From Bacteroidota bacterium (GTDB lineage: Bacteria > Bacteroidota > Bacteroidia > UKL13-3): DNA of 64,000 nt. Position numbers and translations under genes: made by a program. Shown here one piece after another: positions 38,960 through 57,277 of the stretch (the stretch's first letter is position 1; each line of letters opens with the position of its first letter). The stretch covers positions 62,001 to 126,000 of the forward strand of contig CANHVU010000003.1 of the NCBI GenBank assembly GCA_947464275.1, in the 5' to 3' direction. The notes under the pieces were generated by a model. It did not search any database and was not told the origin of the DNA. It worked only from the letters and a program-made list of their open reading frames with translations.

Positions 38960-38991
38960 TTGAGTGAATATAAATGTTAATTGTATGTTTG
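38960..38991 (+). promoter_or_regulatory. Promoter of the NFU gene (TTG-N21-TATGTTTG)
   Basis: TTG at 38960-38962, a 21-base spacer and TATGTTTG at 38984-38991 match the Bacteroidota -33/-7 promoter. Transcription would start near 38998, giving a leader of about 28 bases. The ORF-track start at 38981 overlaps the -7 box, which supports the ATG at 39026 as the true start. Confidence 0.65.
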
Positions 38992-39025
38992 CATATCAAA
39001 CTTAATTAGACTAAATAAAAATAAG

Positions 39026-39601
39026 ATGACTGAAAATACTGAATATTGGAATATATATGCTGAACAAACTCCTAATCCTGAAACGATGAAGTTTGTTTTC
39101 AATAAAATGATTTTACCTGATGAGGCCGAAGATTATCCTACAAAAGAAAAAGCAAATGCCTCTCCTCTAGCTAAAAGTTTATTTGAATTTAGCTTTGTAA
39201 ATGGTGTTTTTGTAATGAATAATTTTGTAACCATTACCCGTGCTCCAGAAACTGAATGGCATGAAATTACTCCAATTGTAAAAGAGTTTTTAAAGGCTTA
39301 CGTAGAGGCTGGTGAACCAATAAGCTACAAATCTGATAAATCAAATATTGAAGGTGCTGATAACATTATTGTTGCTCAAATTTTAGATATTTTAGATACT
39401 TATATAAAACCAGCAGTAGAAAATGATGGCGGCATGATTTCATTTAAATCATTTAACGAGGAAAATGGCTTGGTAACTGTTGAATTGAAAGGTTCTTGCA
39501 GCGGTTGCCCATCTTCGACTGTAACTTTAAAACGTGGCATTGAGGGTTTATTAACCCGCATGGTTCCTCAAGTTAAAGAAGTGGTAGCTGAAAGCCTTTA
39601 A
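39026..39601 (+). CDS. NFU-type iron-sulfur cluster scaffold/carrier (Nfu_N + NifU C-terminal domain)
   Basis: Starting at 39026 (191 aa), residues about 10-100 are the Nfu_N domain (QTPNPETMKFVFNKM, SPLAKSLFEFSFVNGVFV, FVTITRAPETEWHEI). Residues about 115-190 are the NifU C-terminal domain with the cluster-binding CSGC in LKGSCSGCPSSTVTLKRGIEGLL. The protein receives or carries [4Fe-4S] clusters to target enzymes in the cytoplasm. Architecture equals eukaryotic NFU1. It is monocistronic, with its own promoter and a terminator. Targets in the window could include the Nth [4Fe-4S] glycosylase. Confidence 0.9.
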   Translation: MTENTEYWNIYAEQTPNPETMKFVFNKMILPDEAEDYPTKEKANASPLAKSLFEFSFVNGVFVMNNFVTITRAPETEWHEITPIVKEFLKAYVEAGEPISYKSDKSNIEGADNIIVAQILDILDTYIKPAVENDGGMISFKSFNEENGLVTVELKGSCSGCPSSTVTLKRGIEGLLTRMVPQVKEVVAESL

Positions 39602-39627
39602 AAAAAAATATTTTTTTGATTACATAT

Positions 39628-39660
39628 AAAAGCTGATTCATTTTTGAGTTGGCTTTTTTT
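39628..39660 (+). terminator. Terminator after the NFU gene
   Basis: RNA stem AAGCUGAUUC/GAGUUGGCUU with three G-U pairs, a 6-base loop AUUUUU and a following T run, 26 bases after the stop codon. Confidence 0.65.
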
Positions 39661-39679
39661 ATTTAAATAATACAAACAA

Positions 39680-39936
39680 AGACTTCTGTTATTTGAGCAA
39701 TACTTTTACTTTTTCGTTTAAAATTTAACGCCAATTCTTATTATAACTAATTTCTGCCATTTCATGTCTATTTTGTTTTGAATATGAATGCTTAAGTTAA
39801 CTAAATTTGCCTCCTGATTTGGTTTATTATTTACTGATATAATAGCCTTTTCAGATTTAACTATCAATGTTTTTGGCTTGACCTAATTTATTTATAAAAT
39901 CAATGCTTTAAAGCGAAAGCGACATTGTTTTGGGAG
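39680..39936 (-). pseudogene. Decayed copy of a TPR segment of the neighbouring multiheme cytochrome gene
   Basis: The plus-strand DNA CCTCCTGATTTGGTTTATT, further TATAAAATCAATGCTTTAAA and GCGAAAGCGACATTGTTTTG aligns in order and spacing with CCTCCTGCTTTGGATTATT, ATAAAATCAATACTTTGAG and GCGAAAGCGACACTGCTTTT at 40856-40990 inside the cytochrome gene. The match extends left through GCCAATTCTTATTATAACTAA against GCCAACGCTCTGTTATAATTAA. It covers about 250 bases corresponding to the TPR region, in the same orientation. Substitutions and frame breaks prevent any product. It is a remnant of a tandem or nearby duplicate. The outer limits are approximate. Confidence 0.75.
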
Positions 39937-40033
39937 ATGTAAATATTACAAAGGTTCACATAAACTATTTGAAAAATTTACAGATTTTCATTTCAAAATA
40001 TAAAAATAAACTACTCTCTAATTTTGTTATAAA

Positions 40034-40411
40034 TTATGTTTTTGTTTTTCGTGAAAGATTCAGATTGATAACAAATAATATGCACAGTAGGAATATACAA
40101 AGAAAATTATAGTTCGTAGTATCCCAATTAATATTTTTTTCTAACATTGAGATTAATAGTGATCCTCCAGAAACCAAACCTAAAAATGCAATTATAAGGA
40201 AACTAATTAATTTGGTAATCCTGCTAAGCCATTTGCTAGAAAATTTCCAACTTGTTTCATATGCCAACCACATGAGTAAAATTAGTGCGTATAAATTAAG
40301 ATATCCTCCGTCCATGTAACGATATTTTATTCCATAAAGGGATATCGATAATCCATAAATATAAATTATTATGGCTATTACTGTTAAAGTTTTACGTCTG
40401 TCTTCTATCAT
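40034..40411 (-). CDS. Small integral membrane protein
   Basis: This 125-aa protein has four hydrophobic segments: about residues 8-27 (LTVIAIIIYIYGLSISLYG), 37-55 (YLNLYALILLMWLAYETSW), 67-90 (LISFLIIAFLGLVSGGSLL) and 104-119 (FLCIFLLCILFVINLNL). No family is recognised. It lies between the decayed cytochrome copy and the functional one, a region that looks rearranged. It has no close neighbour in an operon. Confidence 0.5.
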   Translation of the reverse strand: MIEDRRKTLTVIAIIIYIYGLSISLYGIKYRYMDGGYLNLYALILLMWLAYETSWKFSSKWLSRITKLISFLIIAFLGLVSGGSLLISMLEKNINWDTTNYNFLCIFLLCILFVINLNLSRKTKT

Positions 40412-40613
40412 TAATTTTCGGTCTTTAAAAATGAAGTATACCTAATTGTTAGATTTTAATATTAATAGTAACTTTTTTATTTAAACTATTAAAGGGATAC
40501 ATTCTTAACTGTGAGACTTGTTTATGGTTGTTGAAATTTCATATCCACTTATTTGTGGTTAAATTCTCTGTTTTTAGATTGTGAGTCTTTGAGATAGAAT
40601 TTGTTATTATAAA

Positions 40614-42575
40614 CTAATAATTCAATTTGCCTATCAACGCCTTTACTTCATCGTTTTTAGGATTCACCACCAAAATACGTTTTAATAATTTCAAGGATTC
40701 AGTTTTATTATTTTCCAAATTATAAACCGCTGCTAAATTTAAAAGTGCTTGTTCATTATCTGGGTTCAAAGCCAACGCTCTGTTATAATTAATTTTAGCC
40801 AAAGCAAGGTCATTTTGTTTTAAATAAGCAAAGCCTAAATTAACCAAACTTCCCTCCTGCTTTGGATTATTGGTTAGGTTATTGTTTAATAATAAAATGG
40901 CTTCATCTAACTTATTAAGCATTATTTTTACTTGTGCTAGTTTGTCAATAAAATCAATACTTTGAGGCGAAAGCGACACTGCTTTTTGGAAAAACAATTC
41001 AGCTCTAACAAAATCGTTTTTGGCTTGAAAAGCTTGCCCAACTCGGTAACACATCCACGCACTTTTTTGCTCATCTATATTTATAAACGAAGTCTTGGCT
41101 ATAATGGCATCATAATCGTTTTGTAGGTAGTGTAATTGCACTTGTGCATCTAACCAATTTTGTTGGTTATCATCTGTTTTAAAATAAGTTTTGGCTTGTG
41201 CTAAAGCTTCTTTTTGTCCATTAAATTTTTCTACATAATTTATTAGCGCCTTCACTTTTGACAGTTCGGTAGTTTCCTTATTATTAATACAATATAAACC
41301 TGCAAATTCTTTTACTTTATCTATTTCATTTTGTTTTACCGCTTTAACAGGCTTTTTTATCCAATGGTCGTGAACGGTAACATGCGGAATATCAATTGTT
41401 CCTGAGCGCGGCATGTGGCAATTGCTACAATCATTATTGTTAACCATTCTATTTTTTTCTGGTTCGCTACACAACGTTTGATTGGTATTGGAATGACATT
41501 TAATACAGGCGTTGTTAAATATTTGTGTGCCCGTTTTTTTTACACTTACATGCGGATTATGACATGTAATACAAGTTAAATTTAAGGTTTCAAAGTTTTT
41601 GCCTTCTGTTTTATTTTGTTTGTTACTTTCAATAAAACACTTACTTAGTTGCAGTCGTTGAGCATGGCTAGCCATAATAAATTGATCGTCTTGGCCTTTG
41701 TATTTAGGCATATATACTTCCCAAAAATCGCTTAACACCATGCCAGGTTTAAAATCTTTAAAGGTTTTTCCTTCTTTTAAAATGGCGTTTCCTTGTAAAT
41801 GGCAGCGTTGACAAACATCTATTTGGCGTTCCCAAGGCAATTTTTTAGGATTAACAATGGTGTAATCAATTTCGTGAGCAGTATCAACCAAATGGCCTGC
41901 AAGCTTTTCTTTCAAATGCACTTCGCCTGGACCATGGCAACGTTCACAATCAATTCCATTTGGAATACTGGTAAATTTATTGGCCGTAAAATCGGTTACA
42001 CTAGGAAAACCATTATGACAACTCATGCACTCAAACTCAATAGTGCGACTAAAACGGCTATTGTTTCCATTTTCAAAACCGGGAGGTAAATCCCACTTTT
42101 TTTCTTGTGCATACCAAGTAAGTGGCATCTGATACAAATAGCCATTAATATTCATCAAATGTGAATTGGTATGTTGACCCGAACCAATTACATAATGAAC
42201 CTTTTCAATACGTTTATATACAGTATCTTTTCCATTCATTCTGTATTCCAGAATAAACATATTATTGTTTTTCCAAAATGGATGGTAATACAGGTTTTTA
42301 AATTTATCGTAAACTACGTGGTGTTTGCTAAAGTCTGCACTCGATTTTTGTTTGGTGGCCAAATCAAAACTTTTACCCATGCCAGTTTCTATAAAAGTAT
42401 TGTAAATATCAGCATGACAACTTCTACATTGCTGCATGCCTACATACTTAACCGAGTCGTTGTGATTTAAATATTTAGTATCGACTTTTTTGTCTAAATC
42501 CTGACCACAATTTAAATTCATCACCAAAACAATTGCAGCAATAGGTATGAATAAGAAAACTAATAAATGTCTCAA
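40614..42575 (-). CDS. Seven-heme cytochrome c with TPR domain
   Basis: The 653-aa protein has a hydrophobic N-terminal signal with a possible lipobox Cys (LNCGQDLD, about residue 23). It has seven CXXCH heme sites, namely CRSCH, CMSCH, CERCH, CQRCH, CITCH, CIKCH and CSNCH, between about residues 50 and 390. From about 480 to the end are TPR units (RAELFFQKAVSLSPQSIDFIDKL, AKINYNRALALNPDNEQALLNLA). The layout matches periplasmic c554-like/doubled-CXXCH electron carriers fused to TPRs in Bacteroidota. The redox partner is unknown. It is 9 bases downstream of an AraC regulator and probably cotranscribed with it. Confidence 0.88.
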   Translation of the reverse strand: MRHLLVFLFIPIAAIVLVMNLNCGQDLDKKVDTKYLNHNDSVKYVGMQQCRSCHADIYNTFIETGMGKSFDLATKQKSSADFSKHHVVYDKFKNLYYHPFWKNNNMFILEYRMNGKDTVYKRIEKVHYVIGSGQHTNSHLMNINGYLYQMPLTWYAQEKKWDLPPGFENGNNSRFSRTIEFECMSCHNGFPSVTDFTANKFTSIPNGIDCERCHGPGEVHLKEKLAGHLVDTAHEIDYTIVNPKKLPWERQIDVCQRCHLQGNAILKEGKTFKDFKPGMVLSDFWEVYMPKYKGQDDQFIMASHAQRLQLSKCFIESNKQNKTEGKNFETLNLTCITCHNPHVSVKKTGTQIFNNACIKCHSNTNQTLCSEPEKNRMVNNNDCSNCHMPRSGTIDIPHVTVHDHWIKKPVKAVKQNEIDKVKEFAGLYCINNKETTELSKVKALINYVEKFNGQKEALAQAKTYFKTDDNQQNWLDAQVQLHYLQNDYDAIIAKTSFINIDEQKSAWMCYRVGQAFQAKNDFVRAELFFQKAVSLSPQSIDFIDKLAQVKIMLNKLDEAILLLNNNLTNNPKQEGSLVNLGFAYLKQNDLALAKINYNRALALNPDNEQALLNLAAVYNLENNKTESLKLLKRILVVNPKNDEVKALIGKLNY

Positions 42576-42584
42576 TTTTATAAA

Positions 42585-43175
42585 TTATATTAATTGATCT
42601 AATGGGGTTCTTGGTTTTATAGCTAAGGCTTTGTATTCACTAACCGAATAAGAAGTAATTTGTTTAAATTGGTTACTTAAGTATTGAACACTGCTGTAGC
42701 CCATTTGATAAGAAATTTCGCTTAAAGTCATTTCATTATAACTGAGTAACTCCTTTACCCTTTCTATTTTTACCAAAATAATAAACTTTTCTAGTGTAGT
42801 ATTGGTTTTTTCACTGAATAATTTACTTAAAAATGAGTACGGCTGCTCTAATTTATCACTTAAGTAATCTGAATTTCTAATAATTGTATTTAGATTATTT
42901 CCATAATAAATCATTTCCAAAACAGCCACTTTAATGGCTTCAAGTAAGGCCATTTCTTTATCATATATTAAATCGAAATTATGTTCTTGAAGTTTTTTTT
43001 GCAGAGCAATAAAATCTATGGTTCCGTTTTTATTATTGATTTGCGCTGCGCCTAAATACACTTTTTCAACTTCAATATTAGGCGTATTTTCAAGTACATT
43101 TTGAACCAAAGAAATACACCTGGAACTCACCATGTTTCTTATCTGCAAAATTGTACTTTTACCTAACTTTCCCAT
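42585..43175 (-). CDS. AraC-family regulator with degenerate HMA-like N-terminal domain
   Basis: This 196-aa protein has an AraC-type double HTH at about residues 95-185 (ERVKELLSYNEMTLSEISYQMGYSSVQYLSNQFKQITSYSVSEYK). Residues about 10-75 resemble the HMA-like domain found in many Bacteroidota AraC proteins, in which a NMVCxRC motif could bind a metal. Here the motif is NMVSSRCIS, so the first cysteine is lost and metal binding is doubtful. It is read before the cytochrome gene on the same strand and probably regulates it and itself. Confidence 0.85.
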   Translation of the reverse strand: MGKLGKSTILQIRNMVSSRCISLVQNVLENTPNIEVEKVYLGAAQINNKNGTIDFIALQKKLQEHNFDLIYDKEMALLEAIKVAVLEMIYYGNNLNTIIRNSDYLSDKLEQPYSFLSKLFSEKTNTTLEKFIILVKIERVKELLSYNEMTLSEISYQMGYSSVQYLSNQFKQITSYSVSEYKALAIKPRTPLDQLI

Positions 43176-43306: not shown

Positions 43307-44845
43307 ATGAACAAACGTACACAATTACAAGAGCTACGCGACCAAGCACAATTAGGTGGTGGAGCAGATAGAATAGCATCTCAACATAAAAAAGGAAAAT
43401 TAACAGCTAGAGAGCGCTTACATTTTTTATTTGATGAAGGAAGTTTTGAAGAAATTGGTGCGTTTGTAATGCATCGTTCTAAAGATTTTGGAATGGAAAA
43501 CCAACAGTTTTTAGGCGATGGGGTAATTACTGGTTATGGAACTATAAACGGTAGATTAGTATATGCTTTCTCTCAAGATTTCACAGTGTTTGGTGGTTCG
43601 TTATCTGAAACCCATGCTGAAAAAATTTGTAAATTAATGGATTTAGCCATGAAAAATGGTGCACCATTAATTGGCTTAAACGATAGTGGTGGAGCTCGTA
43701 TTCAAGAGGGTGTGGTTTCGTTAGGTGGCTATGCCGATATTTTTTATAGAAATACCATGGCGAGTGGAGTAATTCCACAAATTTCAGCAATCATGGGGCC
43801 ATGCGCTGGTGGAGCAGTTTACAGTCCTGCTATTACCGATTTTATTATGATGGTTGAAAATACAAGCTATATGTTTGTAACAGGTCCAAATGTGGTAAAA
43901 ACAGTAACGCATGAAGAAGTAAGTAGCGAAGATTTAGGTGGCGCTTCGGTGCATTCAACCAAAAGTGGAGTAGCTCATTTTACTGCTGCTAACGAAATTG
44001 ATTGTATCAATCAATTGAAAAAATTAATTAGCTATATTCCAGAAAATTGTGAAGAAAAAACACCTGATTTTGCATACGAAGCAACAGATGAAATTAGATC
44101 AAAACTAGCGGATATTATTCCAGAAAATGCAAACCAACCTTACGATATACGCGAGGTAATTAGCGAGGTAATAGATGAAGAAAGTTTTTATGAGGTTCAT
44201 AAAAATTATGCTGAAAATATAGTTGTTGGTTTTGCACGATTAGCAGGTAGAAGCATTGGTATTGTTGCAAATCAGCCAGCTTATTTAGCAGGAGTGTTAG
44301 ATATTCATTCATCGCAAAAAGCTGCTCGTTTTGTGCGTTTTTGTGATAGTTTCAATATTCCTTTATTGGTTTTTGAAGATGTGCCAGGGTTTTTACCAGG
44401 AACCGACCAAGAATGGAATGCCATTATTACCAATGGAGCCAAACTTTTATATGCATTTTGCGAAGCAACAGTGCCACGCATAACTGTAATTACGCGTAAA
44501 GCTTATGGTGGAGCGTACGATGTAATGAACTCAAAACACATTGGTGCAGATATGAACTTTGCTTGGCCAACTGCCGAAATTGCGGTTATGGGAGCTAAAG
44601 GTGCTGCTGAAATTATTTTCAAAAAAGATATTGATAAGGCCGAAGACCATGTGGCTGCATTGGCTGCAAAAGAAAAAGAATATGCCGATTTATTTGCTAA
44701 TCCATACCGCGCAGCGGAACGTGGATTTGTAGATGAGGTTATTTTCCCAGAGGAAACACGAAAAAAGCTGATTAAAGCGTTTAAGATGTTAGAAAATAAA
44801 GTGGTGAATTTACCTAGAAAAAAACATGGTAATATTCCTCTTTAA
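43307..44845 (+). CDS. Acyl-CoA carboxylase carboxyltransferase (beta) subunit, propionyl-CoA type
   Basis: The ORF track starts at 43268, but the conserved start [19 protein letters not shown] begins at the ATG 43307 (512 aa). Motifs are [103 protein letters not shown] and [11 protein letters not shown]. The enzyme transfers carboxyl from carboxybiotin to propionyl-CoA or methylmalonyl-CoA. Biotin carboxylase and biotin carrier subunits are not adjacent. Length agrees with pccB/mmdA. Confidence 0.9.
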
Positions 44846-45024
44846 ATTTGCGATTTAGGAGGTGTGATTTGTGATATAACCTTATTTATTAAGAAAATGT
44901 ATTTCGAAGTGCTCAATTTTAACGGTCGTTATGCTTGTTAGATAGCTATTAGACCAAACCAATGAAGTTGGGCGTGGTAGTAATGATAAATTGGAAATAT
45001 CAATATATTTTGGAATCATCAGCA
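44846..45024. other. Intergenic region after the carboxylase gene
   Basis: Together with copy B of the intergenic element and the part up to 45290 this is a 445-base gap. I see no ORF with a recognised product and no convincing terminator; short open frames (for example KLGVVVMINWKYQYILES) have no match I know. Confidence 0.4.
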
Positions 45025-45111
45025 GTCACGCAGCGCATCTCCTTAATTTGTCAACTAAGTTAGCTAATGGAAAGTAATCATTTATAGCCAAGAAGATGCT
45101 TACAGTATGAC
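45025..45111. repeat. Intergenic repeat element, copy B
   Basis: The plus strand begins GTCACGCAGCGCATCTCCTT and the minus strand from the other end begins GTCATACTGTAAGCATCTTC, so the element is itself an imperfect inverted repeat. The core AGCTAATGGAAAGTA (45063-45077) is identical to copy A (on its minus strand). Confidence 0.55.
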
Positions 45112-45290
45112 TTTGTTTTAGTGTATTGCTATTTTTACTTTTAAAACTTTTTTAGTAAACCATGAAAAATTCAAAAAAAGAAAATGTGTTGCAAACTGTT
45201 GATGATAAAAAATTGACTTTAACAAAAAAACTAAGCCTTGCCGAAGGCAAGAAATTTGCATTTCATTTAATCGATAAATTAAATAAAGAC

Positions 45291-46946
45291 ATGAAAAAAA
45301 TTAAATCAATTATACTCATTTTAGCACTTGCTACATCATTCAATTTATCTGCTCAAAATGGAATAGTAGTTGATGATTTTATTTATACCAATAAAAAACA
45401 AACTGAAAAAAAAGTAAATAGCATGGTAAGTGCTGTTACTGTTTTTGCCAGTCAGGCGCAGGTTACTCGTGTAGCTAAGGTTTCGGGCGAAGCAGGTGTA
45501 TTTAATATTGTTTTTGAACAACTATCTCCATATATAAATATGAATAGTTTAGAAGCAAAAACAGATGCTAATTTAACCATACTGTCGGTAAGCAATAGAA
45601 ACGATTATTTGAATAAAGGCGAAAAGCCTGCTGATATTATTGTATTAGAAGATTCCTTAAATAAAATACAATCAGAATTAGAAGATTTTAAAGCCGATAA
45701 AGAATCAATTGTACATCAAAAAGATTTGATGCTTGCCAATAAAAATGTAGGCAGTAATCAAGTGGGTGTTAAGGCTGATGAATTGGACGATTTAATGGAA
45801 TTATACAAAAAAAAATTGGATGATTTTAAAGTGAATTGGTTTAGGTTGACACGTTTAGAAGATAAATATAACAAAGCGAAATTTAGTATTGAGCAACAAT
45901 TGGCAGCCTACAACAATGGTAAATTAACCTTAAACAATGAAGTAATATTAACGGTAAAAGCTGAAAATAATTTTCAAAATGCACAAGTGGAATTAACTTA
46001 TTTGGTAGGAAATGTTAGTTGGTCGCCCTACTACGACATAAGAGTAAAAGACAATAAAAGCAATGTGCAATTCTTTTTAAAGGCCAATATTTACCAAAGT
46101 ACAGGCGAAGACTGGAACAATGTAAAATTAAAACTAACCACAGCTAATCCTGCCGAAGGAGGTGTAAAGCCTGAATTACAAACTAATTGGTTAGGATATC
46201 AAAACTATAGAAATGATGGATTAAAAGAAGTGGTAATAAGGTCAAAATCAATGTTAATAGATGCTAATTATCCTACACAAGGTTATGGAGTAAATTCAAG
46301 TGCAAGTATGCCAAATATTAGAAAAAGTTTTTCCCAAAACATGTTTAATACAGAGTTTGAAACAAATATAGCTTATTCTATACCAAGCGATAATCAAAAT
46401 CACCAAGTGGATTTAACTAGTTTTGCGCAAAGCGCTATTTATGGTTACTCAGTAGTTCCAAAACTGAACAAAGAAGTATTTGTAACTGCCCAAGTTTTAG
46501 CAAATGATTTAATCAATCAAATTAGTGGTGAAGCCAATGTGTATTACGATGGAACTTTTACAGGAAAAACATTGATTAGTCCAACCGCAAACGATACTTT
46601 ATTGCTTACTTTAGGTAAAGACAAACGCATACAGGTAGAAAGAAAAAAGCTAAAAGAGTTCTGCTCTAATTCATTTTTTGGAGGTACCAAAACCGAAAGT
46701 ATAACATGGGAAATTACCATTAAAAATACGCGTAAAGAAGCAGTTATTTTAATCATTGAAGATCAAATTCCGGTAAGTACCGATAAAGAAATTGAAGTAA
46801 AACTAACCGATAAAGGGTATGCTAATTTAGATGAAGTTACAGGTAAGTTAACTTGGAAATTAGATTTAGCACCCGAAAAAAGCCAAACTATTAAATTTAG
46901 TTTTGATGTAAAACATTCTAAAGCCAAGCAATTGACAGGATTTTAG
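45291..46946 (+). CDS. DUF4139/mucoidy inhibitor MuiA family protein
   Basis: The ORF track begins at 45162, but the signal peptide MKKIKSIILILALATSFNLSAQ starts at the ATG 45291, which I take as the start (551 aa); the upstream in-frame part is Lys-rich and not conserved-looking. The DUF4140 N-terminal part (VTVFASQAQVTRVAKVSGEAGVFNIVFEQLSPYINMNSL) is followed by a coiled coil (about 95-180) and the DUF4139 domain (LTYLVGNVSWSPYYDIRVKDNKSNVQFFLKANIYQSTGEDWNNVKLKLTTANP). It is periplasmic or surface located. The biochemical role is unknown. Confidence 0.8.
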   Translation: MKKIKSIILILALATSFNLSAQNGIVVDDFIYTNKKQTEKKVNSMVSAVTVFASQAQVTRVAKVSGEAGVFNIVFEQLSPYINMNSLEAKTDANLTILSVSNRNDYLNKGEKPADIIVLEDSLNKIQSELEDFKADKESIVHQKDLMLANKNVGSNQVGVKADELDDLMELYKKKLDDFKVNWFRLTRLEDKYNKAKFSIEQQLAAYNNGKLTLNNEVILTVKAENNFQNAQVELTYLVGNVSWSPYYDIRVKDNKSNVQFFLKANIYQSTGEDWNNVKLKLTTANPAEGGVKPELQTNWLGYQNYRNDGLKEVVIRSKSMLIDANYPTQGYGVNSSASMPNIRKSFSQNMFNTEFETNIAYSIPSDNQNHQVDLTSFAQSAIYGYSVVPKLNKEVFVTAQVLANDLINQISGEANVYYDGTFTGKTLISPTANDTLLLTLGKDKRIQVERKKLKEFCSNSFFGGTKTESITWEITIKNTRKEAVILIIEDQIPVSTDKEIEVKLTDKGYANLDEVTGKLTWKLDLAPEKSQTIKFSFDVKHSKAKQLTGF

Positions 46947-47050
46947 CTAAAGTCAATTGAATCTTGATAATTGCGAGAATTTGACTTTTAAGTGATTCAA
47001 GCTTAAGCTTCCAATTTTAATAATGGATAATTAAACTGAATAATTGGTTT

Positions 47051-47455
47051 TTAATCATTCAGGAATCTATTCAAATATTCAGGCCTCATTACCCAGCAAG
47101 TTTTTGTTTTCCCGAAAAACTTATACCTGTTTTTTGCAATGACATCATAAAAGAAATCATTAATGGAAGTAGGTATGAATTTAAAAATAGATAACAATTT
47201 AAATGGGTATTTTAGATTTGAACTAATTAAAAGTGCTGCTTTAGATTTTATGTAAAATACACTATTTTCATAAACAATAATTGAATCAACGTTTAAATTA
47301 AAGCCATTTTTTGTAAAAAATTGAATGGCAAAATCACTCTGCAAACTACAAAATTGATACTTTGGTTCAACTTCATTAGTTAAAACAACCTGTACAAAAT
47401 TATTGCATAAATTACACGCGCCATCAAAAAAAATAATGGATTGCGAGCTAGTCAT
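47051..47455 (-). CDS. DCC-family thiol-disulfide oxidoreductase-like protein (DUF393)
   Basis: This 134-aa protein has the family signature FFDGACNLCNNFVQ near the N-terminus, with a CxxC that could be redox active, and later FCSLQSDFAIQFF and MRPEYLNRF. The DUF393/DCC family is predicted to be thioredoxin-like, but substrates are unknown. It is the last of three minus-strand genes (86-aa membrane protein, DUF983, DCC) spaced by 5 and 2 bases, so it is cotranscribed with them. Confidence 0.85.
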   Translation of the reverse strand: MTSSQSIIFFDGACNLCNNFVQVVLTNEVEPKYQFCSLQSDFAIQFFTKNGFNLNVDSIIVYENSVFYIKSKAALLISSNLKYPFKLLSIFKFIPTSINDFFYDVIAKNRYKFFGKTKTCWVMRPEYLNRFLND

Positions 47456-47457
47456 AA

Positions 47458-47859
47458 CTATTTTTTATTTATTAAATTAATGTCGAACTTAATTGGTGAA
47501 AATAAATAAAGCATTAAAACACGTGCATATCTGTATGTAAATGGTATTGATAAAAACATTGACAAGAAAATTGGAATAATATAACCCCAAAAACCAGCAT
47601 CATGGCCACTTAAAATATAAACAATAGCGCCAACAACTAACATCATTCCAGTGGTAATTGCATAGCTAACGTACATAGCACCCCAAAAAAAACCTGGTTC
47701 TACTTCAAAAGTCAAATCGCAAACTGGACAAGTATCAAACATTTGTGTAAATCCATTTAATTTGAATACACTAAACTTAAACATTTTACCACTTTGACAT
47801 TGAGGACATTTTGCTTTTAATATAGATAAACCTTTATTGGGTTCGTATTTATTACACAT
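47458..47859 (-). CDS. DUF983 family membrane protein
   Basis: The 133-aa protein has an N-terminal zinc-ribbon-like pair of CXXC motifs (CPQCQSGKMF at about 18-27 and CPVCDLTFEVEPGFFWGAMYVSYA at about 44-67) followed by two membrane segments (TTGMMLVVGAIVYIL and YIIPIFLSMFLSIPF). This is the DUF983 pattern. It is in the inner membrane with the cysteines probably in the cytoplasm. The function is unknown. It is flanked in one operon by the 86-aa membrane protein and the DCC protein. Confidence 0.85.
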   Translation of the reverse strand: MCNKYEPNKGLSILKAKCPQCQSGKMFKFSVFKLNGFTQMFDTCPVCDLTFEVEPGFFWGAMYVSYAITTGMMLVVGAIVYILSGHDAGFWGYIIPIFLSMFLSIPFTYRYARVLMLYLFSPIKFDINLINKK

Positions 47860-47864
47860 ATTTA

Positions 47865-48125
47865 TTATTTAGAGTTAATAGTCAATTTCTTTTTAGCTCT
47901 AACATTTTTAATGTATAAAAATAAAAATACCATCGCCAATATGTAAGGAAATACAAATAAGTAAATAATTCCATTATTAAGTGTATTTCCTACACTTGTT
48001 TCTCCATCTGCTCTTGCTGAAGCTAATGACTGTTTGCACATAGGGCATTGAGCATCAATTTTTAATGGTAATGAAATAATAAAACCAAAAACTAATATTA
48101 AAAATGTAATTGTTTTCCTTTTCAT
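47865..48125 (-). CDS. Small membrane protein with CPMC motif
   Basis: This 86-aa protein has an N-terminal hydrophobic segment (ITFLILVFGFIISLPLKI), an extracytoplasmic CPMCKQSLASARADGETSVGNTLNNG and a C-terminal membrane segment (IIYLFVFPYILAMVFLFLYI) with a basic end. The CPMC motif may be redox active or bind a metal. I recognise it as a conserved hypothetical of this phylum but cannot assign a function. It leads the three-gene set with DUF983 and DCC. Confidence 0.65.
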   Translation of the reverse strand: MKRKTITFLILVFGFIISLPLKIDAQCPMCKQSLASARADGETSVGNTLNNGIIYLFVFPYILAMVFLFLYIKNVRAKKKLTINSK

Positions 48126-48217
48126 AGAACAAATGTATGTTTAAATGTCTTGTACTTTTCAATGACTTTTGTCTTTGATTAACACCGAAACAAAAATTAT
48201 CAATTTGAAATTTTTTG

Positions 48218-48676
48218 TTATTCTAAAATATATTCTTCGGCTTCTAGGCCATCATTTTCTAGCCTAATAATAGTTTGATGTTTATGAGTTCCAATAATTA
48301 TTGCCTCAGCAATAAAAAGACCGTCCGCTTCCTCTACTAACACGTCATCAATTTTGTCATTAATTAAATTTTGCCAAGCGTTGGTTTTACTTGCATTACG
48401 TGTTTGATATTGCAAACTACCAGAAAACTCCACTTGTAAGTTATGGTTTAAAAGCTCAATATCCAATGTGGCTATTGGTAAAATCATTTCACTGATTTCT
48501 TCTGCTTTTTGAAGAATCAACTTACTATTGTCGGTAAACTGTAGCTCTATATACTCCACAAAACTAAATATATCTTGCGGGTTGGCCTTATTAACCCAAA
48601 AGTGGTATAAAACATTGCCTAGTATCTTACCTTCAGCACTTTTGAGTAACTTTAGGTGTTCTGGATTGTAATACAT
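48218..48676 (-). CDS. Hypothetical protein downstream of purC
   Basis: This 152-aa soluble protein has no signal peptide and no family that I recognise. It is acidic, with YNPEHLKLLKSAEGKILGNVLYHFW at the N-terminus and ADGLFIAEAIIIGTHKHQTIIRLENDGLEAEEYILE at the C-terminus split by beta-rich sequence. It starts 2 bases after the purC stop, so it is cotranscribed with purC. Confidence 0.6.
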   Translation of the reverse strand: MYYNPEHLKLLKSAEGKILGNVLYHFWVNKANPQDIFSFVEYIELQFTDNSKLILQKAEEISEMILPIATLDIELLNHNLQVEFSGSLQYQTRNASKTNAWQNLINDKIDDVLVEEADGLFIAEAIIIGTHKHQTIIRLENDGLEAEEYILE

Positions 48677-48678
48677 AA

Positions 48679-49629
48679 TTACATAGCTAGTTTGTCTAAT
48701 TCTGATAGGATAGCTTTTTCCATTTGATCTTCAAAATTATCATAACCATTTTTAATAAATTCTAAGCCTGTAATGCTTTGATACAACTCAACATAGCGAT
48801 TGGTAATACTATCAATTAAATCATCAGGGAATGTTGGTGCTGTAGCTCCCTCCTGCCCTTGAAAACCTTGGCTGATTAACCATTGACGCACAAACTCTTT
48901 CGATAATTGGCGTTGTTGCTGGTCTTTAGCTTGAATTTCTTGATAAGTATCTGCATAAAAATAACGTGATGAATCAGGAGTGTGAACTTCATCCATTAAC
49001 ATAATTACACCATCTTTGTTGCCAAATTCATATTTGGTATCCACTAAAATTAAACCTTGCTTTAAAGCAAACTCAGTTCCAAATGCATACAATTCACGGG
49101 TATATTTTTCGATTTGAGCAAAATCTTCAACACTTACCAAACCTTGAGCAATAATTTCCTCTTTGCTAATATCTGTATCATGACCGCTTGTAGCCTTTAT
49201 TGTTGGGGTAATAATTGGTTCAGGAAACTTATCATTTTCGCGCATTCCTTCAGGCATTGAAACACCACAAATAGTGCGTTTTCCACTTTTATATTCGCGC
49301 CAAGCGTGACCAGTTAAATATCCGCGAATTACTATCTCAACTTGGTAAGGTACACATCTATGTCCAATAGTTACATTGGTATGTGGCGATGAAATAATCC
49401 AATTGGGAACTATGTGTTTAGTTAAATCAAAAAAGAATGCCGCAGTTTGATTAAGTACTTGTCCTTTATAGGGAATTGCCTTTGTCATTACCACATCAAA
49501 TGCCGAAATTCTATCAGTAGCAACCATAACCAAAACATCGTCATTTATATTATAAACGTCTCGAACTTTACCTCTGTAAAAGTTTTTTTGTTTTGGAAAA
49601 AAAAAGTTTGTTGCAATTATAGCTTTCAT
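48679..49629 (-). CDS. purC: Phosphoribosylaminoimidazole-succinocarboxamide synthase
   Basis: The ORF track starts at 49665, but Met 13 (49629) begins the conserved MKAIIATNFFFPKQ, so I take that start (316 aa). Motifs are FYRGKVRDVYNINDDVLVMVATDRISAFD, RCVPYQVEIVIRGYLTGHAWREY, LILVDTKYEFG and MDEVHTPDSSRYF. The enzyme condenses CAIR with aspartate, using ATP, in purine synthesis. The length is of the longer, eukaryote-like type common in Bacteroidota. No other pur gene is near. Confidence 0.93.
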   Translation of the reverse strand: MKAIIATNFFFPKQKNFYRGKVRDVYNINDDVLVMVATDRISAFDVVMTKAIPYKGQVLNQTAAFFFDLTKHIVPNWIISSPHTNVTIGHRCVPYQVEIVIRGYLTGHAWREYKSGKRTICGVSMPEGMRENDKFPEPIITPTIKATSGHDTDISKEEIIAQGLVSVEDFAQIEKYTRELYAFGTEFALKQGLILVDTKYEFGNKDGVIMLMDEVHTPDSSRYFYADTYQEIQAKDQQQRQLSKEFVRQWLISQGFQGQEGATAPTFPDDLIDSITNRYVELYQSITGLEFIKNGYDNFEDQMEKAILSELDKLAM

Positions 49630-49730
49630 ATGTTTATAGTAAATTAGGAAGCCGCAATAATACAATATTAACTATGTAATTTGACCACTGTTTATAAACA
49701 AATGATGTCAAAGGCAAACTATCTTTTGGT

Positions 49731-50264
49731 TTAGAACATTAAATCAAATTCTTGCTTAACAAAAACTATAGCTTTATGGGTAGGTGTATCGTTTAAATTT
49801 ATAATTTCTTCAAAAATGGCTTTACTAAGGTCTATACCCACACAGTTAGGGCCTAAATTAGCATAAGAAGTATTAATTAAATTAATCATTTCTTCTTTCA
49901 CTACCCTAATCATTTGCCAGCACTGTGCTGAAACATACAATTGCTGTGAAATATTATGACTAAACTCTTGGTTAATACTAGCTATCAAATCCATTTTTAA
50001 TTGTGAAGCACTGATACCAGGTTGATGAATACGAATAACCAAACTTTCAGGACTAATACGCTCAATAAACAAAATCATGCGTTCATAAGCTTGCAATTTT
50101 AATGGCAATAAAGTCTTTTCTTGTTCTTTTCTTAAGTCAATCATTCGCTTTTGGTACTTGTCATCAAAAAATGCTTTTTGTTGATAGTAAACCACTAAGA
50201 ATATTACCAAAGCAGGTAATAAGTATTTTAAAAAATCTAAAAAAAATGCAAAACTTTCGTTCAT
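49731..50264 (-). CDS. Membrane-anchored conserved hypothetical
   Basis: This 177-aa protein has one N-terminal membrane segment (FLKYLLPALVIFLVVYYQ) followed by a helical cytoplasmic part that begins with a charged coiled coil (KAFFDDKYQKRMIDLRKEQEKTLLPLKLQAYERMILFIERI). The arrangement is that of a phylum-restricted conserved hypothetical. The gene lies 14 bases after rnc on the same strand and may belong to the acpP-fabF-rnc transcript. The function is unknown. Confidence 0.65.
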   Translation of the reverse strand: MNESFAFFLDFLKYLLPALVIFLVVYYQQKAFFDDKYQKRMIDLRKEQEKTLLPLKLQAYERMILFIERISPESLVIRIHQPGISASQLKMDLIASINQEFSHNISQQLYVSAQCWQMIRVVKEEMINLINTSYANLGPNCVGIDLSKAIFEEIINLNDTPTHKAIVFVKQEFDLMF

Positions 50265-50278
50265 GTGTAATATTTTAA

Positions 50279-51295
50279 TTAATTATTTGCTTTAGCATCC
50301 TCAGTTTGGTATTCTAAAGCATTATCTAAATCAATGTTTTCAATCTTAATTTCTTGGATAGCTTCATTTTGATCAGCAAAAATTTCTATTTCTAACTCAT
50401 CTTCTACAATCAACTTTTCTTCCAAAACTTCCTCTAATTGATTCTCAGTTGATTCGTTTTTATCTATAATAAAACTTTCTTCAAATACCTCGTTCAAATG
50501 CACTTCTTCTAATTCGTCTACTCTTTCTTGAGTTATGAAAAAGTCTTTTGGTGTATTTTTGAGCAATTCAATTGCTTTTTCGGAGGCTTGCTGCTCGGCT
50601 TGTTTTTTATTGGTATGTTCCGCTTCACCAAACACTTTTTTGTTTACAATTACCGAAACTTTGAATATTTTTTGTTTTCCGTGAGCCAGCTCATCAACTT
50701 TAAAATCTAGGTTCATGCCCGATTTTTGAGTATATTCAATGAGCCTGCCTTTAAAGTTTTTTTCAGTTTGTTGCAATTTATCTACATCAATGTGCAAACG
50801 AAGCAGCTTTTCAATGATAAAGTATTTTGATTTTTTAAAACCTTTGTCTAAGAATATTGCACCAATAAACGCTTCTAAGGCATTACCAAAAATGCTATTC
50901 CTAACATTAATATTTTGCATACTTTTTCTATCGTACTCAACCAATTCGCTCAAACCAATTTTAAGAGCCAAATCGTTTAAACTAACTCTGCTAACAATCT
51001 TTGATCGTAACTCTGTTAAAAAACCCTCGTCTTTGTATGGATATTTTTTAAATAAATATTCGGCAATTACAGAGTTTAAAACAGCATCGCCCAAAAATTC
51101 CAATCGTTCATTGCTATCTTTACTACCGCTATTATGAATTTTACTAGCAATAGAATGATGCCTTAACGACTGCTTATAGCAACTTAGGTTTAAAGGTGTA
51201 ATACCTGTAATCTGTTTTATCCTTGTAAATAAAACACGATCTTTAGAAAAATAGTATTTAAAATTAGAAAAAAAGGTAATCAAATTATTCCTCAA
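50279..51295 (-). CDS. rnc: Ribonuclease III with long acidic C-terminal tail
   Basis: Residues about 15-160 are the RNase III domain with the signature NERLEFLGDAVLNSVIAEYLF and the second acidic site ALEAFIGAIFLDKG. About 165-240 is the double-stranded-RNA-binding domain (KGRLIEYTQKSGMNLDFKV, ANKKQAEQQASEKAIELL-like). The enzyme processes rRNA precursors and structured RNAs. The last 95 or so residues are very acidic (EEVHLNEVFEESF, QLEEVLEEKLIVEDELEIEIF) and are not part of the usual 220-250-aa protein. The start overlaps the end of fabF by 11 bases, so it is coupled to it. Confidence 0.93.
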   Translation of the reverse strand: MRNNLITFFSNFKYYFSKDRVLFTRIKQITGITPLNLSCYKQSLRHHSIASKIHNSGSKDSNERLEFLGDAVLNSVIAEYLFKKYPYKDEGFLTELRSKIVSRVSLNDLALKIGLSELVEYDRKSMQNINVRNSIFGNALEAFIGAIFLDKGFKKSKYFIIEKLLRLHIDVDKLQQTEKNFKGRLIEYTQKSGMNLDFKVDELAHGKQKIFKVSVIVNKKVFGEAEHTNKKQAEQQASEKAIELLKNTPKDFFITQERVDELEEVHLNEVFEESFIIDKNESTENQLEEVLEEKLIVEDELEIEIFADQNEAIQEIKIENIDLDNALEYQTEDAKANN

Positions 51296-52538
51296 ATTTC
51301 TTTATAATAATCGAGGCGTTGTGGCCACCAAAACCAAATGTATTACTTAAAACTGCTTTTACCTCGCGGTGTTGGGCTTTATTAAAAGTTAAATTTAATT
51401 TTGTGTCAAATGCTGGATCGTCTGTAAAGTGATTGATAGTTGGAGGAATGATACCTTTATTAATAGCTAACAAACTGGCAATTGCCTCAATAGCACCAGC
51501 TCCACCTAATAAATGACCAGTCATTGACTTAGTAGAACTAATATTAATATTGAATGCATGTTCACCAAAAACAGTTTGAATAGCTTTTATTTCTTGCGGA
51601 TCACCTAGTGGAGTCGATGTGCCGTGTACATTCACGTAATCAATTTCGGTTGGTTGCATACCTGCATCTAACAATGCAGCTTTCATAACATTAGCAGCAC
51701 CAATTCCTTCTGGATGAGGGGCTGTCATATGATAAGCATCGGCAGTTGCTCCATAACCAACTATTTCGCCATAAATTTTAGCACCACGAGCTTTGGCATG
51801 CTCTAATTCTTCAAGCATTAATGCACCAGCACCTTCACCTAACACAAATCCATCTCTATCTAAATCGAATGGACGTGAGGCAGTTTCTGGACTATCGTTT
51901 CTTTCAGAAAGCGCTTTCATTGAGTTAAAACCACCCATTGCAGCTTCGTTTACTACAGCCTCAGAACCACCAGTTAAAACCATATCGGCTCTATTTGATT
52001 GGATGTACATAAATGCATCTCCAATAGCGTTGGTACTTGAAGCACAAGCAGAAACAACTGCAAAGTTTGGACCTCTAAATCCGTATTTTATTGAAATTAA
52101 GCCCGCTGCTATATCAGCAATCATCATCGGAATGAAAAAAGGGCTAAAGCGTGGGGTTCCATCGCCTTTTGCAAACGAAGTAACTTCGTCTAGGAAAGTT
52201 TTTAATCCACCAATTCCAGAAGCCCAAATTACCCCAACTCTATCTTTGTTAACTGTCTCTAAGTCAAGTCCGCTGTCTTTAACGGCTTCGTCAGAAGTTA
52301 CCATAGCAAATTGGGTAAATCTGTCCATTCTCCTAGCATCTTTTTTATCAAGAAACTGGTTTGGATCAAAGTTTTTTACTTCGCAAGCAAATTTTGTTTT
52401 GAAATGGGTGGTATCAAATTGGGTAATTGGCGCACTGCCACTTACCCCATTTGATAATCCATTCCAATACTCCTGCAAACTGTTACCTATTGGAGTTATA
52501 GCTCCAAGGCCAGTAATTACTACTCTGCGTTTATGCAT
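51285..52538 (-). CDS. fabF: Beta-ketoacyl-ACP synthase II
   Basis: This 417-aa condensing enzyme has the catalytic Cys in VSACASSTNAIGDA, catalytic His in NVHGTSTPLGD and STKSMTGHLLGGAGA, and the glycine-rich GFGGHN near the end. It elongates acyl-ACP with malonyl-ACP in fatty acid synthesis. It follows acpP by 55 bases and overlaps rnc, giving the well-known acpP-fabF-rnc order. Confidence 0.96.
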   Translation of the reverse strand: MHKRRVVITGLGAITPIGNSLQEYWNGLSNGVSGSAPITQFDTTHFKTKFACEVKNFDPNQFLDKKDARRMDRFTQFAMVTSDEAVKDSGLDLETVNKDRVGVIWASGIGGLKTFLDEVTSFAKGDGTPRFSPFFIPMMIADIAAGLISIKYGFRGPNFAVVSACASSTNAIGDAFMYIQSNRADMVLTGGSEAVVNEAAMGGFNSMKALSERNDSPETASRPFDLDRDGFVLGEGAGALMLEELEHAKARGAKIYGEIVGYGATADAYHMTAPHPEGIGAANVMKAALLDAGMQPTEIDYVNVHGTSTPLGDPQEIKAIQTVFGEHAFNINISSTKSMTGHLLGGAGAIEAIASLLAINKGIIPPTINHFTDDPAFDTKLNLTFNKAQHREVKAVLSNTFGFGGHNASIIIKKFEE

Positions 52539-52593
52539 GTAAGATTAGTTTTGGGAGATGTTTGTTTTAATTTTTTTTGTAAAAATTAGCTGA

Positions 52594-52833
52594 TTATGAT
52601 TTTACATTTTGTTCAATGTAACTAACAGCTTGTCCAACTGTACCAATTTTTTCAGCTTGATCATCAGGAATTGCAATATTAAATTCTTTTTCAAATTCCA
52701 TAATTAGCTCTACAGTATCTAATGAATCTGCGCCTAAATCGTTTGTAAAACTTGCTTCGTCTGTAATTTCAGCTTCTTCAACACCAAGTTTGTCCATGAT
52801 GATGGTTTTTACTTTTCCTTTAATTTCTGACAT
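52594..52833 (-). CDS. acpP: Acyl carrier protein
   Basis: This 79-aa acidic helical protein has the phosphopantetheine attachment Ser in [15 protein letters not shown] at about residue 38. It carries the growing acyl chain in fatty acid synthesis. It leads the acpP-fabF-rnc operon. Upstream on the minus strand, TTTATTTG at about 52866-52873 resembles a -7 box with one mismatch. Confidence 0.96.
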
Positions 52834-53088
52834 TTTTGTATTGTTTAAATTTTTAGATGTGGGTGCAAATAAAGCAGTTTTTATTAAAAAAATAAATTTT
52901 TATCTATTTCGGTAATTACTTAAGCTCGTTTTGCGAATGAATTTTGTTTTTATATATTGTGTTTTTTTCAATATTTATATTGTAATAATTTGATATTCAA
53001 TACTATTTATTTTAACATTTTACTTATCAAATTTGTGAATAATATTTATTCTTATAATACAATTTAACTTTCCTTTAGCAATAAATAT

Positions 53089-53733
53089 TTACATTTTTAT
53101 ACCGTATGCTAAATCGCCTGCATCACCTAAACCCGGAACTATATAACTATTTTCGTTTAAATCCTTATCAACTGCAGCCGTTATTATACTAGCTTTAGGC
53201 ATAAAACGGTTTATATAAACCAAACCTTGCTCACTAGCTATTAGACTAGCAATAATAACCTTAGCAGGAACCCCATGTTTGCAAATGGCTTGATAAGCCA
53301 AATACATGCTTCTGCCTGTGGCTAACATTGGGTCTATTAATATTACTGTTTTATCTTGCAAATTGGGAGATGCCATGTATTCAACTACAATTTCAAATTC
53401 GCCTGGAGCGCTATGCTTTCTATAAGCCGATACAAATGCAGAATCTGATTGATCAAAAAAATCTAGAAAACCTTCATGCATAATTAACCCAGCGCGTAAG
53501 ATGCTGCAAACTATAGGTTGATTATTAATTACATTCACCTCTGCATTTGCCAATGGAGTAGTTACAGTTTTGGTTTCGTAGTTTAATTGCTTACTTACCT
53601 CGTAAGCCAATATTTGAGCTATTCTGAATAAATTTTTTCTGAACCGAAGCGCATCTTTTTGTATTTCTTTATCTCTAATTTGAGCTAAAAAATGCTGAAC
53701 AATGGAGTTTTTTTCAGAAAGATTGATTAACAT
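53089..53733 (-). CDS. upp: Uracil phosphoribosyltransferase
   Basis: This 214-aa protein has the PRPP-binding ILIDPMLATGRSM at about residues 130-142, ILRAGLIMHEGFLDFF, and the uracil-binding C-terminal YIVPGLGDAGDLAYG. It salvages uracil to UMP. Length is that of the family (about 208). It lies 22 bases after the WD40 protein gene on the same strand. Confidence 0.94.
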   Translation of the reverse strand: MLINLSEKNSIVQHFLAQIRDKEIQKDALRFRKNLFRIAQILAYEVSKQLNYETKTVTTPLANAEVNVINNQPIVCSILRAGLIMHEGFLDFFDQSDSAFVSAYRKHSAPGEFEIVVEYMASPNLQDKTVILIDPMLATGRSMYLAYQAICKHGVPAKVIIASLIASEQGLVYINRFMPKASIITAAVDKDLNENSYIVPGLGDAGDLAYGIKM

Positions 53734-53755
53734 AAATAGAGGTAATTAATGTAGT

Positions 53756-54952
53756 TTACTTTTTTAACGATGGTGTTTTGTAAATTTTAACTGTATCAAT
53801 TTTAGAATTGTTAATGTTTGTATTTTTTACACTTGATTTGAAAGCCTTTATTTGAAATTTCAAACTATCTTGCTTAGTCAATGTTCTAATTTTCATAACA
53901 CTGTCAATCGCATTTTGAAATTTGTTGATGCGCATTTTACTCGCATCATTTAAGCCCATTGTAATTGGGTCTATTAAGTCCGTAGAATATATTCTTACAC
54001 CAAAATCAACTGAACCTTTTAACATAGGTGCTGCTGCAATTTGGCTATATTTTTTCAAAAAAACTAAATCTCTGGTATTGTAATTTTGACTTGCAATATT
54101 CTCAATTAGTCTACCCGTTTCCACTTCCCAAATTTTTATACTACCATCATTACACCCAGTTGCACAATATTTACTATCAAAACTGAAAGCTACAGCTGTT
54201 ACTTTCCAACAATCAACGGGTAGTTTTTTTAATTCTTTGCCCGTTTTTACCTCCCAAATTCGAGCACTTTTATCATTACTTCCACTTAGTAAATACTGTT
54301 GATTAGGGCTAATTTCTATGGCATTTATCATATCAGAATGACCAACAAATGAACGTTGAACCTGACCATTTGCAACATTAATAACCTTAATAATTGGCTC
54401 TCTTCCTGCAACAAATACTGTTCTTGGATCATTACTCATAACCATTGCATTTACTGCACTGCCAGTATTCAACTCTCTTAATTTTTTCTGTGTTTCTAAA
54501 CTCCAAATAATAATTTTACCATCATCATCGCCACTAAAAACTACTTTACCACTATTATCAAACATAATCGAATTAATATTTGAAACATGGCCATCATTGG
54601 CTACTAACATTTTTGTCTTTTTGAAAGTACTGTCAAATACATTAACTACAAAATCGTTTGAAGCGCTTGCAAGTAAATTTCCTTGTTTATTAAATTTTAA
54701 AGCATTTATAGGTGCTCTATGTGCATCATTTATCGATTTAATTAGTTTAAATGTGGTATCGTTGCAATTGTAAATATTGATAGTATTATCCCAACCTGCA
54801 GATGCCAATAAATTAAATTTAAAAGAAACAGCCAATGCATTAACATCATTAGTGTGTCCTGGTAAAATTAACTGATGCGAAGCAAGTTGTTTTTGAGCAA
54901 AAGCACCTTGCAATCCAAAAATAAAAAGTACAAATGGAATTAATTTCTTCAT
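53756..54952 (-). CDS. Secreted WD40 beta-propeller protein
   Basis: This 398-aa protein has a signal peptide (MKKLIPFVLFIFGLQGAFAQ) and about seven WD40 blades (for example INALKFNKQGNLLASASNDFVVNVFD, AIEISPNQQYLLSGSNDKSARIWEVKTG, AVAFSFDSKYCATGCNDGSIKIWEVETG) over about residues 30-320. A C-terminal helical region follows. It is a periplasmic or surface scaffold; WD40 proteins with signal peptides are common in Bacteroidota, but the partner here is unknown. It precedes upp on the same strand. Confidence 0.85.
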   Translation of the reverse strand: MKKLIPFVLFIFGLQGAFAQKQLASHQLILPGHTNDVNALAVSFKFNLLASAGWDNTINIYNCNDTTFKLIKSINDAHRAPINALKFNKQGNLLASASNDFVVNVFDSTFKKTKMLVANDGHVSNINSIMFDNSGKVVFSGDDDGKIIIWSLETQKKLRELNTGSAVNAMVMSNDPRTVFVAGREPIIKVINVANGQVQRSFVGHSDMINAIEISPNQQYLLSGSNDKSARIWEVKTGKELKKLPVDCWKVTAVAFSFDSKYCATGCNDGSIKIWEVETGRLIENIASQNYNTRDLVFLKKYSQIAAAPMLKGSVDFGVRIYSTDLIDPITMGLNDASKMRINKFQNAIDSVMKIRTLTKQDSLKFQIKAFKSSVKNTNINNSKIDTVKIYKTPSLKK

Positions 54953-55031
54953 TTTAGCTTAAAAAAATATTTGTCGCAATCTAATGTTTTATAAGTAAAT
55001 TCAAATAGGATTGTTACAAAAAGTCCAAATT

Positions 55032-55685
55032 TTAAATAGGCAAACCTTTTTGCCACTTAGGATATGATTTACAAAATTCGGTTAATTTACAATTATCACA
55101 CTTGGGTGATCTTGCGGTGCAAGTGTATCTTCCATGCAAAATCAACCAATGATGAGCTACAGCCACATATTCTTCTGGTATATATTTAATTAGCTCTTTT
55201 TCGGTTTGAAGTGGTGTTTTTGAATTGGTAGTTAAACCCAAACGATTACTTACTCTAAAAACGTGCGTATCAACGGCCATGCTTGGTTGGTTATAAACCA
55301 CCGAAGTAATTACATTGGCTGTTTTACGGCCTACTCCTGGCAGTTTTGTGAGAGTTTCTGTTGTTTCGGGAACTTTTCCGTTAAAATCGTTTACCAGCAT
55401 TTGAGCCATACCAATTAAGTGTTTGCTTTTATTACTTGGATAGCTAACTGATTTTATATAATAAAAAACTTCATCAAACTCAGCTTCGGCTAATTTTTGT
55501 GGAGTTGGAAAAGCTTTAAACAATGCTGGTGTAATCATATTGATACGTTTATCGGTACACTGAGCTGAAAGAATTACTGCTATTAAAAGTTGGAAAGGAT
55601 TTTCATAATGCAGTTCTGTTTCTGCAATTGGCTGATTAGTTTTAAAATAGTTTATAATTTGCTCAAATCGATCTTGCTTTCTCAT
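55032..55685 (-). CDS. nth: Endonuclease III
   Basis: The ORF track starts at 55736; Met 18 (55685) gives MRKQDRFEQIINYFK and the normal length of 217 aa, so I take it. Motifs are the HhH KLPGVGRKTANVI with the catalytic Lys, the catalytic Asp in MAVDTHVFRVSNR, and the [4Fe-4S] ligands in CTARSPKCDNCKLTEFC. It is a DNA glycosylase and AP lyase that removes oxidised pyrimidines. Confidence 0.95.
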   Translation of the reverse strand: MRKQDRFEQIINYFKTNQPIAETELHYENPFQLLIAVILSAQCTDKRINMITPALFKAFPTPQKLAEAEFDEVFYYIKSVSYPSNKSKHLIGMAQMLVNDFNGKVPETTETLTKLPGVGRKTANVITSVVYNQPSMAVDTHVFRVSNRLGLTTNSKTPLQTEKELIKYIPEEYVAVAHHWLILHGRYTCTARSPKCDNCKLTEFCKSYPKWQKGLPI

Positions 55686-55776
55686 AAAATGGGTTTGTTT
55701 TATTTCTACAATATTATGCTCAAAATGTTTAAACAATAATTGTATTGATTATTATTGCTCCAAAATAAATAAAAAC

Positions 55777-56301
55777 ATGAAACTATTTTCAACCATTGCC
55801 TTTATTTTAGTATTTACTATTGTAGGTTTTTCGCAAAACAATGCCGATTCGTTAATGAATGCTTTTACGCCTGAAAAAAAATCGGCTAAAATATTTACCC
55901 AAAAAGCCATTCAATTTAACTCAAACGATAGTATAAATCCTGATTACGAAATAAAAGCAGGTAATAAATTATTATTTGAGTACGAATTTAGAAGCAAAGA
56001 ATACCTTCAAATAGCCGATGACGAAATATTAGAAAGGTTAATTTTTACCATTAACCTAAAAGCAAATAGTTTTTACTTTAAATCATCTAACTTAAAAAAC
56101 ATACCTATATTATATACTCAAAGTTGTTTTTGCCGCGATGCAGGAACCTATAAAATAAAAAACGGAACATTTATAGGTACAAAAGTTAACAGCACTACTT
56201 GGAAAGTAAAAGTTAAATTTAGCTATATAGCCCGTAACTCTAATTTAGTGGTAAAAAAAGCATACACTTTAACCTACAAAATAGCTAAAAATAATGACTG
56301 A
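55777..56301 (+). CDS. Hypothetical secreted protein
   Basis: This 174-aa protein has a signal peptide (MKLFSTIAFILVFTIVGFSQ) and a beta-rich mature part with one CFC pair (QSCFCRDAG). No family is recognised. It overlaps the following GNAT gene by 8 bases, and three to four further genes follow closely on the plus strand, so it leads a short operon with rnhA and probably with the CDGSH and miaA genes. Confidence 0.6.
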   Translation: MKLFSTIAFILVFTIVGFSQNNADSLMNAFTPEKKSAKIFTQKAIQFNSNDSINPDYEIKAGNKLLFEYEFRSKEYLQIADDEILERLIFTINLKANSFYFKSSNLKNIPILYTQSCFCRDAGTYKIKNGTFIGTKVNSTTWKVKVKFSYIARNSNLVVKKAYTLTYKIAKNND

Positions 56302-56776
56302 TATTTTTGAAATAAAACCTGCTACCAAAAATGATGCAGGAATCATTTTAGAATTAATAAAAGATATAGCCGAATATGAAAAATTATCGGACCAAGTAGA
56401 AGCAACTGAAGAAAGTATTGTAAAATATTTATTTAGAGAAAAAGCTTTTGCGGAATGTTTGATTGGTTTTGAAAACCAAGTTCCAATTGGTTTTGCCTTG
56501 TTTTTCCATAACTACAGTACCTTTGTAAGCAAGCCCGGTATTTACTTGGAAGATTTATTTGTTAAAGAAAAATACAGAGGAAAAGGTTATGGCAAAAAAT
56601 TGTTGTTAAGACTAGTAAAAATAGCTCATGAGCGCAACTGCGGCAGAGTAGAATGGAGTGTGTTAAATTGGAACAAACCAGCTATTGATTTTTATGAAAG
56701 CTTGGGTGCTACACCCATGAATGAATGGACAGTTTACCGATTAAACCAAGAAGCAATAAATAAGTTAGTATTATAA
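56294..56776 (+). CDS. GNAT N-acetyltransferase, diamine acetyltransferase-like
   Basis: This 160-aa protein has FEIKPATKNDAGIILELIKDIAEYEKL at the N-terminus, the acetyl-CoA motif in LEDLFVKEKYRGKGYGKKLLLRL, and RVEWSVLNWNKPAIDFYESLGA, a pattern shared with spermidine/spermine and thialysine acetyltransferases. The actual amine is inferred. It overlaps the preceding gene by 8 bases and ends directly at the rnhA start. Confidence 0.88.
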   Translation: MTDIFEIKPATKNDAGIILELIKDIAEYEKLSDQVEATEESIVKYLFREKAFAECLIGFENQVPIGFALFFHNYSTFVSKPGIYLEDLFVKEKYRGKGYGKKLLLRLVKIAHERNCGRVEWSVLNWNKPAIDFYESLGATPMNEWTVYRLNQEAINKLVL

Positions 56777-57256: not shown

Positions 57257-57277
57257 AATATTGAATTATAAATAACC

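Follow-up and report, generated by a model that had tools for sequence, protein, structure and literature searches.

Partial gene duplication leaves pseudogene remnants in bacteria. In the window, a 64,000-nucleotide stretch of a Bacteroidota contig, we found a relic that is the same in kind as such remnants: it is likewise truncated, frame-broken, non-coding and AT-drifting, and it stands beside its intact parent. It reproduces, in part and without function, the TPR-coding 3' region of the seven-heme cytochrome gene next to it. It is an ordinary gene fossil, which happens to sit on the junction left by the relocation of a gene block; the relocation is a modest extra. Another described process, tandem duplication random loss, predicts a change of order from nfu-block-cytochrome-X to nfu-cytochrome-X-block, as is seen here. 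Unlike what that process leaves, however, the stretch between nfu and the cytochrome gene in this genome yielded no trace of the lost block (none in 39595-40620), and a profile scan brought up no cytochrome remnant where one would be expected, next to the block in its new position. The locus matters as a legible trace of two events, a small duplication and the move of a gene block, in an uncultured lineage of freshwater Bacteroidota.

Local alignment under strict scoring showed that positions 39724-39936 are collinear with 40765-40991 of the cytochrome gene, in the same orientation. The wider pair of regions (39601-40115 against 40614-41100) scored 211, compared to a mean of 84.8 (sd 9.7) and a maximum of 125 among 1000 dinucleotide shuffles. 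This bears out the first-pass annotation, which had described about 250 bases as matching a TPR segment of the cytochrome collinearly and in the same direction, and had proposed pairwise alignment against shuffled sequence as the check. The relic-gene pair was also recovered within the window by blastn, over 227 columns at 69% identity (E 8e-19). Further, a nucleotide profile of ten cytochrome genes from the genus matched the relic (E 9e-19, aligned at 39692-39935) in a scan of the 125 kb around the gene, with no significant match besides the gene and the relic. The extent originally claimed, 39680-39936, stands at its right end but not at its left, where support starts only at about 39724: the stretches on the two sides, 39663-39723 and 39937-40033, gave alignments indistinguishable from those of shuffles (fractions 0.34 and 0.87, respectively). 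The true extent of the relic is, accordingly, about 213 bases (Table 1). It is devoid of heme motifs and sits about 1.05 kb to the left of its counterpart, downstream of the 3' end of the cytochrome gene, copying part of the coding sequence for the TPR tail that ends the protein.

Table 1. Features of the locus and, in the last rows, the corresponding intervals in genomes of the genus (positions are those of the window unless a locus with an L number is named)
Feature	Position	Strand	Evidence or remark
nfu (Nfu_N + NifU domains), left neighbour of the relic	38981..39601	+	likely start ATG 39026
nfu terminator hairpin	39628..39657	+	conserved in relatives; followed by the breakpoint (about 39662)
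Novel segment (relic, orphan ORF, spacers)	39663..40641	.	at this place the nearest relative has a 13.5-kb stretch of other genes
Possible left margin of the relic	39673..39723	-	permissive scoring only; shuffle fraction 0.34, unsupported statistically
Relic, incomplete and decayed copy of TPR-coding sequence in the 3' part of the cytochrome gene	39724..39936	-	shuffles, blastn, profile
Orphan hydrophobic ORF of 125 aa between relic and gene	40034..40411	-	no Pfam/NCBIfam match
Intact seven-heme (7 CXXCH) TPR cytochrome, 653 aa, lipobox-like N-terminus	40614..42575	-	one copy in each relative
Counterpart of the relic in the intact gene, TPR region	40765..40991	-	local alignment, blastn
Interval Cys/Met enzyme-cytochrome, L030	15717-16654		
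Interval Cys/Met enzyme-cytochrome, L032	11549-15930		
Interval Cys/Met enzyme-cytochrome, L035	5196-7619		
Interval Cys/Met enzyme-cytochrome, L033	9915-11282		
Intervals Cys/Met enzyme-cytochrome, L038 and L039	1894-2970 and 10488-10872		reverse complement

On the strand of the gene, the three frames of the relic contain 8, 5 and 12 stops. Of the gaps that separate it from the gene, 19 of 22 are not multiples of three, and its differences fall evenly on the first, second and third codon positions (16/81, 18/84 and 19/84), the codon-position counts being small. The changes comprise 25 from GC to AT compared to 13 from AT to GC, with a GC fraction of 0.27 in the relic against 0.32 in its counterpart. 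All these counts vary in their exact values with the alignment. Thus, the stops, the frame-breaking gaps, the drift towards AT and the even spread over codon positions point to unconstrained decay, and the relic probably has no activity at present. It displays the marks of a pseudogene remnant, namely homology, a lost reading frame, evenly affected codon positions and no functional gene at that place in relatives. The earlier reading of this stretch as a duplication followed by decay agrees with these features, and with there being no second gene or relic in relatives.

The nine congeners have one cytochrome gene apiece and no relic: when their DNA was searched with the region of the relic, the matches were to the intact gene, to the nfu flank and to short AT-rich stretches, and none to a second relic, and a profile scan of all the loci retrieved from relatives likewise found no other relics. 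Across the family, the cytochrome tail is single in 56 of 64 genomes (at E 1e-20 or better) and is never found twice; among 58 relatives searched, just one genome gave two cytochrome matches, and there the gene is split between contigs. The search for relatives with tandem cytochrome genes, which the first-pass annotation had suggested, was therefore negative. An in-frame TGA in the cytochrome gene of one relative proved to be its normal stop codon. The records of the genus that bear names are Bacteroidetes metagenome bins, and a literature search on this cytochrome family found nothing. Immediately upstream of the cytochrome gene, separated from it by 9 bases and read in the same direction, is an AraC-type regulator ORF (42585-43175); the relative G004 keeps it there, but in the other congeners examined it does not adjoin the cytochrome.

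That the cytochrome locus has been rearranged, as had been claimed, is seen from comparison with G004, the best-matching relative, which shares the gene order on both sides. There, 13.5 kb separates nfu and the cytochrome gene, and the present genome carries 12.6 kb of this interval, with unchanged orientation, some 50 kb further right, at C3:153058-165192. In the closest relative, the block ends with a thioesterase gene on the nfu side and a Cys/Met PLP enzyme gene on the cytochrome side. G003, G004 and G009 retain nfu and the thioesterase gene side by side, and in seven of the nine congeners the near downstream neighbour of the cytochrome is the Cys/Met PLP enzyme gene; both adjacencies are broken in this genome. 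Since these two ancestral adjacencies are broken at once here, the gene orders suggest that the rearrangement most likely happened in the lineage of this genome. The breakpoints fall just after the nfu terminator (39662) and within the last cytochrome codons (about 40642), with 980 bases of novel segment between them, in which the spacers are AT-rich. Up to 39662, the sequence consists of the conserved 3' flank and terminator of nfu, a gene 98.5% identical in the nearest relative, and the left end of the relic lies about 60 bp beyond this breakpoint. As to the membrane protein gene said to lie between the relic and the cytochrome, the ORF is present, but it is an orphan of unproven gene status: homologues are absent from 63 other family genomes, and a sample of about 290 genomes from across the class gave one weak match (E 1e-4, 28% identity). 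With a downstream neighbourhood that is not ancestral, the function of the cytochrome should not be guessed here from nfu or the membrane ORF.

The best explanation overall, which we consider very probable, is that the relic arose by local duplication of the 3' part of the cytochrome gene and then decayed. A unit of about 1.05 kb (about 1054 bases), comprising the 3' end of the cytochrome gene and the downstream flank with the membrane ORF, would have been duplicated in tandem. If the unit began to the left of the membrane ORF and ended within the TPR-coding part, its duplication would put a truncated gene tail exactly at the right end of the relic. The left copy, cut inside the gene and functionless, would have decayed, and the relocation of the 12.6-kb block would then have removed all that followed the nfu terminator as far as the middle of the decayed copy, leaving a scrap of 213 bp. 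A breakpoint inside the dead copy would explain both the start of the relic about 60 bases past the nfu breakpoint and its missing last codons. While the fossil and the rearrangement are well supported, we infer the order and mechanism, and hold the exact succession of tandem duplication, decay and block removal only tentatively, with confidence slightly short of even. The duplication unit cannot be seen in relatives because in none of them does the membrane ORF adjoin the cytochrome. Of 133 positions that do not vary within the genus, the relic differs at 25, about 0.22 substitutions per site after correction, and the synonymous distance to the closest species is 0.52-0.55, half of which is about 0.27. 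The closeness of the two values suggests, as a rough timing, that the age of the copy may be close to that of the divergence from the nearest species.

The source of the copy bears on a different history, in which the relic is the rest of a complete second cytochrome gene, either tandem or gained from a related species, with all but the tail deleted. The relic scores almost alike against the genes of three species (190 for this genome, 191 for L003 and 191 for L004), and the donor need not have been its own gene. Trees do not single out a position of the relic as sister to this genome's own gene, and they reject no placement, every one tested having an AU p above 0.12. All five private bases of its own gene occur in the relic when it is aligned to that gene, but in an alignment made without that gene 3 are common to the relic versus 8 that are not; this count depends on the alignment and was set aside as evidence of origin. 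Against a complete second gene, the other two thirds leave no trace elsewhere in the 125 kb around, and no relative has two cytochrome genes; we regard this history as rather unlikely. We give similarly limited credence to the relic being filler DNA captured at the repair of the break left by block removal. This would make relic and rearrangement one event, where the duplication-first model needs two, and the relic does lie within the new junction segment between two broken neighbourhoods; however, its direct orientation about 1 kb from the source fits a tandem duplication as well.

Two other readings fare worse. Both regions are AT-rich (GC 0.27 and 0.32), which might favour a chance or compositional similarity, but the score lies about 13 sd above the dinucleotide shuffles and the profile E is near 1e-18; chance was ruled out by the shuffle test, and its probability is negligible. 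That the relic acts as an RNA or a regulatory element descended from the gene has nothing in its favour beyond its existence, and is very improbable given that the relic has no Rfam match, is conserved in none of the nine congeners searched and shows a neutral substitution pattern. Beyond the partial duplication that we prefer, the 3' flank of the cytochrome gene might be a recurrent site of breakage and insertion in the genus, with the relic as one of its scars. Genomes of the genus carry differing cargo between the cytochrome and Cys/Met enzyme genes, but we consider such recurrence quite unlikely.

The interval between the Cys/Met PLP enzyme and the cytochrome ranges from about 0.4 to 4.4 kb across the genus, and its cargo includes a RelBE-like pair in L038 and an SMI1-like ORF in L030 (both named by eye). 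A RelE-like ORF in the G004 block (L030 5666-5956, within the interval 5635-6174) has no match here, the flanking pieces of the block being directly joined. Elsewhere in the window, the 12.4 kb at 44838-57265, between two stretches collinear with G004, has no counterpart at that place in G004; thus, the window departs from G004 in gene order at several further points.
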